64,000 nucleotides of DNA, from the NCBI RefSeq assembly GCF_030062585.1, contig NZ_CP071935.1, forward strand, positions 372,001-436,000. Direction: 5' to 3'. This document shows positions 11,450-13,192 of the stretch, one piece after another. The translations under genes were made by a program, and so were the position numbers. Every line of letters begins with the position of its first letter. Within the stretch, counting starts at the first letter, position 1. Source of the stretch: Helicobacter pylori (GTDB lineage: Bacteria > Campylobacterota > Campylobacteria > Campylobacterales > Helicobacteraceae). The notes under the pieces were generated by a model, which made no database searches, was not told the origin of the DNA, and saw nothing but the letters and a program-made list of their open reading frames with translations.

Positions 11450-13192
11450 TTAACTTTTAAACTGATAAGCGCCCTCAAAGATTTGAGAAGTCAATACATT
11501 TTTGATTTGTGGTAACTTCACATTCTTTAGCGCTTCTCTTGGGACTTCAACCACTAATTCCTCAAACGCTTGGTCATTTAAAGGGTTATCAATATCAAAA
11601 ACGAAACTTAAGATATTGTGGAGCGAGTTATAGGTAACCTTGTCAATTAACGCATAAGTTAGTCTAATTCCCTCTGCTTGCTCTATGGCTGTTACGATGC
11701 TTTTAGATAGTCTAGGGCTGATGTTACCAAGTTGTGTCGCTAAATCTGAAATAAAGCAATACCCTGCATCGGTGTCTATGGTGTTAGCAAGCACTTTAGC
11801 AATCAATGTCCTACTCACTTTTTTACCTTGTCGCATAGCGTTGGCAACCTTGCGGATTTTAATATTGTGGTTATAGCTCTGTCTAAAGCTTTTGCTTGTG
11901 AGACATTTTAGTTTTTCTCTGTCAAAAATACCTTTTCGTTCCCAATCCTCTATCTCATCAATAGAGAATGATTGTTGATACCCATTAGCCCTAGAACTAT
12001 TCTGTCTTGCTATAATACTAGATTTAACAAAGTCCATAACTCCTAACCCCTCTGTATCTCTAGGTAGTCTTATCGCTTTTATTTGTGTCTTAACGATGTT
12101 TTTAAAATACACACCATAATTGTCTTTGTCTTCTTTTTTAAAGAAAGTATAGACTTTGTCTTGTAATCTTGTGAGAGATTGTGGCAATTCATTAGGAGCA
12201 GAGAATGTGATGCCTGTAAAAGTCCAATCCACTTTACCAAAATCCTTTTCTGTCGCTAATACTAAATCTACTTTTCCAGTCTCGGCGTTGTCGCAATAAC
12301 AAATCGCCTCTTGATTGAAATACTTCGCCAAATCTAATAATTGGTCTTTCAAGTCAAATGAGTTACTAGGTTCGTTTTGAAACACAAAGAAACTAACTTC
12401 TTTGCTTGGTAATAATGGGTCATCTAACCTATCTTTCCAATAACCTGTTACTTGTAGATAACCTAAAAAGTGTCTCTTTTGGTCTAATAGAGATTTTAGC
12501 TCTTGTGTCCTTTTAATATTGTCTTTTTGAGTGAAGCGGTATTTTTTGACAAATTTATCGCTAGACATAAAGTCTCTCATTGTCGCATTGCTGTTTATGA
12601 ACTTATCAACATAGTCTTTACCTAACTTCCTACTCAATGTCTCATAAATTCCTTTAACTAAAATCTTATATTGGGGGATAACTTTACCTGTCGGTTTAAA
12701 GAACTCCTTAACTTTAATAGATTTTGTGGGGTCAATGTCATCAGTTGCCTCTCTAAATTTAGTCTTATTCTCTTTCATTTGAGCTAAATAAAGCTTTGAT
12801 ATTTTGTCTTTTTCATTAGGTCTTAATCCACTACTATAAGCTTTTTTTAACAAGGCTTGTTGGTCATTAGTGAATGTAGCTTCAAAATAAGGTTTAAAAA
12901 CTCTAAACGCCGAGATAGTCCCAAAAGGTAGTCCGCTTTTGATTTTATTGACAATACCTCCAAGTCTAGTAGCTTTAATAGTCGTGTTTTGTTCGCTTTT
13001 AAGTCGTGAGAGTTCCTCACCAAACGCATCTAATGTCGCTCTTAAAGATAAGCCCCCTTTTATCCTCACTCTAGGTTTATTTTGTCTAGCTAGTTTCTTG
13101 TCCGCTAACGCCTTATCAATAGATGCTGTCAAAGAAGTGTTTCTATCATGTGGTTCATCAACCAATTCTAAAAAATCGTAATTCAATAACAT
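11450..13192 (-). CDS. Orphan 580-residue protein, possibly of phage or other mobile origin
   Basis: I do not recognise a named family. The protein is hydrophilic, with no signal peptide or membrane segment. Residues 1-60 are charged, and a helical region follows. A middle block (about 215-310) reads NIKRTQELKSLLD, then LGYLQVTGYWKD, VSFFVFQN and LAKYFNQEAICYC. That pattern resembles small proteins of tailed phages in which an N-R-x-L-x-x-x-L stretch is followed by 'SFFV' and 'LAKKYNQ'. The start is supported by AAAAGGA six bases before the ATG. The gene uses words such as GTCTT and CTAA more, and AAAGCG less, than its neighbours, suggesting transfer. It is inserted between bioD and the usp/clp operon. 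Confidence 0.6.
   Translation of the reverse strand: MLLNYDFLELVDEPHDRNTSLTASIDKALADKKLARQNKPRVRIKGGLSLRATLDAFGEELSRLKSEQNTTIKATRLGGIVNKIKSGLPFGTISAFRVFKPYFEATFTNDQQALLKKAYSSGLRPNEKDKISKLYLAQMKENKTKFREATDDIDPTKSIKVKEFFKPTGKVIPQYKILVKGIYETLSRKLGKDYVDKFINSNATMRDFMSSDKFVKKYRFTQKDNIKRTQELKSLLDQKRHFLGYLQVTGYWKDRLDDPLLPSKEVSFFVFQNEPSNSFDLKDQLLDLAKYFNQEAICYCDNAETGKVDLVLATEKDFGKVDWTFTGITFSAPNELPQSLTRLQDKVYTFFKKEDKDNYGVYFKNIVKTQIKAIRLPRDTEGLGVMDFVKSSIIARQNSSRANGYQQSFSIDEIEDWERKGIFDREKLKCLTSKSFRQSYNHNIKIRKVANAMRQGKKVSRTLIAKVLANTIDTDAGYCFISDLATQLGNISPRLSKSIVTAIEQAEGIRLTYALIDKVTYNSLHNILSFVFDIDNPLNDQAFEELVVEVPREALKNVKLPQIKNVLTSQIFEGAYQFKS

Follow-up and report, generated by a model that had tools for sequence, protein, structure and literature searches.

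This locus raises the question of what a 580-codon open reading frame (ORF) is doing between bioD and the usp-clp genes of Helicobacter pylori, within a stretch of 64,000 nucleotides that was analysed as a whole (the window). The ORF lies on the minus strand at 11450-13192 in the window ORF list, with its ATG at 13190-13192 and its TAA stop at 11450-11452. It is a functional gene and not a chance frame, because full-length homologs occupy the same site in other genomes and because the ratio of nonsynonymous to synonymous substitution rates (dN/dS), 0.33-0.41 for the whole gene and 0.11-0.18 for its C-terminus, indicates purifying selection. Judged from its sequence, the protein is very probably a chromosomal relative of the phage S-adenosylmethionine (SAM) lyases, or SAMases, such as that of phage T3, and we regard this assignment as well supported.

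Relationship to phage SAM lyases

The apparent lyase identity draws more support from paralogs and from profile comparisons than from the 580-residue protein alone, for which Pfam, PHROG and NCBIfam searches returned weak matches only. The Pfam gathering score of PF23780 (S-AdoMet lyase) is 28 bits, and it was exceeded by the bioD-locus ortholog in genome G007 (L003, 29.2 bits) and by the paralogs L105 (40.4 bits, 3.4e-10) and L029 (29.4 bits, 8.4e-7); the 580-residue ORF was in turn found from L105 at 5.7e-9. The original prediction, which saw no recognised family, is therefore right for this protein when standard thresholds are applied and fails for its same-locus ortholog. PF23780 matched 2 of the 16 family members scanned, while 10 of the 16 matched phrog_2226, the family of T3 gene 0.3 (6.4e-54). 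Across genomes, 10 of the 60 relatives scanned had a PF23780 match, each of them a member of the genus, and none of 14 controls did; matches were also present in 8 of 397 genomes of the class, one of these in another genus. When the Helicobacter domain was compared with seven phage SAMases by hhalign, the probability was 94.1% (E 1.2e-7) with a score of 51, against at most 20.7 in 60 column shuffles, and the register agreed at the G, aromatic, E and Q positions. The same region had a weak match to DUF3293 (PF11697; E 0.03-0.1, and 8e-4 in L029) that stayed below threshold everywhere.

The domain layout, read from Pfam, hhalign, sequence alignment and an AlphaFold2 (AF2) model, can be followed along the minus strand. 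A first-strand motif, FGTISAFR (residues 90-97; 12902..12925), is the counterpart of the phage VSAFR and is followed by a helical insertion (residues 98-219; 12536..12901) that is absent from the small phage SAMases. The main part of the SAM-lyase domain (residues 220-330; 12203..12535) contains E265 (codon at 12398..12400), the counterpart of Svi3-3 Glu69 and T3 Glu68, with S267 next as E-x-S, and Q294 (codon at 12311..12313), the counterpart of Svi3-3 Gln104. E265, S267 and Q294 correspond to Glu69, Ser71 and Gln104 of Svi3-3, which are SAM contacts (PMC7877911), and along with G250 and the aromatic residue 252 they line up with the residues that bind SAM in the phage enzymes. When the domains of nine divergent Helicobacter copies were aligned, only four columns were invariant, and E265, S267 and Q294 occupied three of them; E, S and Q were likewise kept in 15 of 15 full-length aligned sequences from the bioD and carbonic anhydrase loci. 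The central stretch, which had been said to recall small tailed-phage proteins, is thus a real likeness, namely to the T3-type SAMase domain.

The first AF2 model had a predicted local distance difference test (pLDDT) score of 52, which a deeper alignment raised to 64. In the two models the fold is ferredoxin-like, of PII type and SAM-lyase-like. Foldseek against BFVD recovered the annotated SAM hydrolases of POP72 and PP81 (probabilities 0.99 and 0.98), and against the PDB the deeper-alignment model placed the SAM lyase 6zm9 at rank 2 and the T3 SAMase 7ock at rank 17, with a template modelling (TM) score of 0.45 on the target. The protein shares the SAM-lyase domain and the SAFR strand motif with T3 SAMase (gene 0.3) and Svi3-3, but it has about 580 residues against their 140-150, carries the helical insertion and N- and C-terminal extensions, and is encoded on the chromosome in several copies.

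A comparison with the Helicobacter phages KHP30 and 1961P, which had been suggested as a check, showed no relation: both are among the 50,697 phage records searched by tblastn, and none of these gave a match. Nothing matching the protein was found by tblastn in phages and plasmids or by a viral-contig scan; two scans of genome contigs were also empty, apparently because that collection leaves out near relatives. The literature searched did not connect SAM lyases with H. pylori. Three further observations concern the superfamily at large. Both RefSeq (NC_003298) and PHROG (phrog_2226) give the T3 SAMase gene (L087:901-1359) the misleading label 'SAM-dependent methyltransferase'; a genome from another family of the same order has a strong PF23780 match at 5e-18 (L142, G064:C1:1556647-1556964); and Prevotella Lak megaphages encode a SAM-lyase-like protein (about 285 residues) that carries no annotation (L131, L132).

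The bioD site and the wider family

The gene was described as an orphan, yet it is one member of a multi-copy family. Checked for presence and absence, the family is patchy: 17 of the 34 genus genomes hold a member, and a search of 298 class genomes gave none outside the genus. Of the 15 H. pylori-group genomes, 13 carry the gene at the bioD locus (12 at full length, shortened in G021), G018 has a remnant there and G013 lacks it, while the outgroups G008, G010 and G012 have a plain bioD-usp gap of about 110 bp. The insertion lies right beside the bioD start codon, and the ancestral intergenic sequence (13193..13300), which alone separates bioD from usp in empty-site genomes, was left on the usp side. 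Among the 40 non-overlapping window ORFs of at least 180 residues, the gene has the poorest codon-usage fit (z -2.8), which confirms that its word use differs from that of its neighbours, and its GC content is low (35.2% against a mean of 39.7%; 31.7% against 43.4% at third codon positions). The acquired-looking composition, the patchy spread and the empty outgroup site support part of the original interpretation.

Upstream of the start, AAAAAGGACACAAAATG forms the good ribosome site that had been predicted, with AAAGGA at 13199..13204 (minus strand), 6 nt before the ATG. The gap of 3 bp (11447..11449) between the ORF stop and the bioD start codon was also confirmed, and bioD (10790..11446, minus strand) is the next gene downstream. 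On the other side, usp (13301-13714) and clpS/clpA are divergent from the ORF. No phage or transfer element was seen among the window genes at the bioD-usp locus, and scanning for promoter and terminator consensus sequences produced no usable signal beyond chance. The source genome is a single contig of 1.64 Mb. The neighbouring genes run gltA-icd-HP0028-bioD-ORF-usp-clpS-clpA, an order that matches HP0026-HP0033 in H. pylori, where HP0026 is listed as gltA (PMC2375058), and from this we infer that the ORF occupies the HP0030 position; HP numbers throughout rest on synteny. HP0030 protein was detected by mass spectrometry in strain 26695 and was enriched in a CagF pull-down alongside IS605 proteins (PMC12070742), which shows expression at most, and applies here only if HP0030 is the same protein.

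Relatives occur at four further fixed loci, with neighbours named from reading the ORFs: between carbonic anhydrase and asd, between aspB and xerH, downstream of ftsZ, and in a region running from GmrSD and a DHH protein to speA. The carbonic anhydrase-asd gene was for a time equated with HP1187; this was dropped, since HP1187 is reported as a DUF874 protein. The aspB-xerH copy lies directly upstream of an integrase, confirmed by Pfam. One member at such a site (L023:7121-8735), directly upstream of a XerH-like integrase, is C-terminal-only (178 residues), and most other genomes examined have other versions of the family beside xerH, several of which lack the catalytic E and Q. Copies downstream of ftsZ are mostly broken, and the remnants of the SAM-lyase-like cluster there (L021:9635-10958; L105, L106, L116, L118) resemble an intact pair in G012. 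By speA, a recurrent row (L021:16958-19986, L022:31-2906) comprises GmrSD, a DHH protein, a SAM-lyase-like paralog of 610-632 residues and a protein of about 299 residues, possibly a multi-gene defence operon. In G012 the pair consists of two adjacent genes, the first with the N-terminal part and the lyase domain with its insertion, and the second combining a lyase domain of the classic kind with the C-terminal domain; it lies near AbiLi/AbiLii-like (RloAB) and GmrSD genes. Profile matches suggest that the 580-residue protein may join the front of the first gene to the C-terminus of the second.

Exchange of the variable centre between loci

The copies at the bioD and carbonic anhydrase loci differ along their length in an ordered way. 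Over residues 80-455 they form about six classes, mostly 80-98% identical inside, with one loose pair at 64-75%. Residues 313-455 (11828..12256, minus strand) are the most variable segment, roughly 30-57% identical between classes and up to 67%, regardless of which of the two loci holds the copy. Residues 456-580 (11453..11827, minus strand), a conserved C-terminal domain also found alone before xerH, are 80-95% identical across all bioD and carbonic anhydrase copies. The G007 bioD copy matched the G015 carbonic anhydrase copy at 93% over exactly the ribosome-binding site and ORF and not beyond, whereas the two copies within G015 matched each other at only 74-80%; the block common to both loci stops just upstream of the ribosome-binding site. 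Synonymous divergence (dS) between classes in the central part was mostly 0.6-1.7; in the flanking genes most comparisons gave 0.1-0.3, and none exceeded 0.44. The variable central part has been exchanged between chromosomal sites through the near-constant ends, and the allele pattern suggests that this part is diversifying, perhaps for a changing partner. The Type I specificity subunits of H. pylori (PMC3077401, PMC3983042) also have variable segments that move between positions by way of conserved flanks, but the 580-residue protein is not a DNA-recognition subunit by sequence, and the two are compared as an evolutionary pattern alone.

Possible roles and their meaning

Considering these results together, the best overall explanation is a chromosomal member of the SAM-lyase superfamily used in phage or restriction conflict, to which we give a rough probability of 0.6. 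In the most likely model, a ferredoxin-fold domain of PII type, interrupted by the helical insertion between its first strand and first helix and extended at both termini, would bind SAM between the subunits of a presumed oligomer through E265, S267 and Q294 and split it into 5'-methylthioadenosine and homoserine lactone. Cleavage of SAM, argued from homology, is slightly favoured. When active, the captured SAMase would lower SAM or destroy a SAM-derived signal, and it would act either as an immune effector or to restrain SAM-dependent restriction, while its variable segment would recognise a partner that changes fast. Homology, diversification and the defence neighbours of the paralogs bring such a conflict role to a little short of even odds. 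A bolder version is doubtful: a domesticated phage SAM-destroying enzyme, formed by fusion of a G012-type gene pair, that would serve the H. pylori group as an allele-swapping immune effector, attacking SAM or a SAM-based signal once its variable centre senses a phage or foreign-DNA trigger.

Several points weigh against a SAM lyase in conflict. The protein itself falls below the PF23780 gathering score, its phrog_2226 match is weak (0.0077), and its full-length hhalign comparison with the phage SAMases was also weak (7.6%), probably because of the helical insertion; the comparison was then redone on the domain, as given above. PDB Foldseek E-values for 6zm9 and 7ock were 0.15-1, with no PDB match below 0.1, which is not significant alone. 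Broken copies of the family, fragmented or frameshifted, are numerous in many genomes, and several xerH-locus copies are without E and/or Q. PADLOC gave 0 matches for the protein and three paralogs, with only neighbours matching, and constitutive SAM cleavage would be costly.

The alternative that survives best is a domesticated anti-restriction gene, by which a host SAMase would damp the host's many SAM-dependent restriction enzymes and ease the uptake of foreign DNA. In phage T3 the SAMase counters restriction (PMC7877911; PMC12707154), and the central domain of the 580-residue protein is its homologue. However, no phage or transfer element accompanies the bioD-usp locus, and the paralogs sit with defence genes. 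Lowered SAM would also expose unmethylated host sites, because Type II restriction is independent of SAM, and we consider this alternative unlikely.

The loss of E and/or Q from some xerH copies implies that some relatives need no catalysis, and a binding-only role therefore stands as a rival: a non-catalytic sensor of SAM or a SAM derivative, in which a PII-like module would regulate a partner through the variable region. The PII fold is common to SAM lyases (PMC7877911), and the paralogs L027 and L028 have lost the catalytic E/Q and keep long open frames. T3 SAMase also inhibits MetK (PMC8406200; PMC12707154), and partner binding is therefore another option for the 580-residue protein. Sensing alone, however, would not demand E, S and Q in all 15 full-length sequences from the bioD and carbonic anhydrase loci, which makes a sensor improbable. 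Slightly less probable still is a selfish or decaying remnant, a once-mobile gene now drifting; the broken copies, the cleanly empty bioD site of G013 and the remnant in G018 would fit it, but it conflicts with the full-length open frame in 12 of the 15 H. pylori-group genomes, with the dN/dS values and, if HP0030 is the same protein, with its detection in 26695 (PMC12070742). The suggested effect on biotin synthesis, which rests on gene adjacency, was unsupported, and a biotin-operon regulator is very improbable: biotin synthesis consumes SAM (BioA, BioB), the ORF precedes bioD by 3 bp on the same strand and in the source genome some 5 kb separate a cluster of broken copies from a bioA-like gene, but other copies adjoin unrelated genes (carbonic anhydrase-asd, aspB-xerH, speA) and bioD lacks the gene in G008, G010, G012 and G013.

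A SAM lyase working for its host would have a precedent in the SAM-AMP lyase of Clostridium botulinum type III CRISPR, a host-encoded member of the fold that serves immunity and retains the E/Q pair (PMC12255297). The 580-residue protein differs from it in its large extra domains and in a source genome without Cas10, as the Cas10 (Cmr2/Csm1) models TIGR02577 and TIGR02578 had no match in G000 and both matched in control genomes.

Known SAM lyases belong to phages, in anti-restriction and anti-BREX roles, with one CRISPR accessory role. If the explanation favoured here is true, a chromosomal, multi-locus and diversifying family would make the destruction or sensing of SAM a host activity, and this in a bacterium well known for how many restriction-modification systems it carries. 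It would also offer testable biochemistry for 'hypothetical' H. pylori genes, both at the HP0030 position and at HP0673/HP0674, of which HP0674 is reported to rank top in base substitution (PMC12666383).
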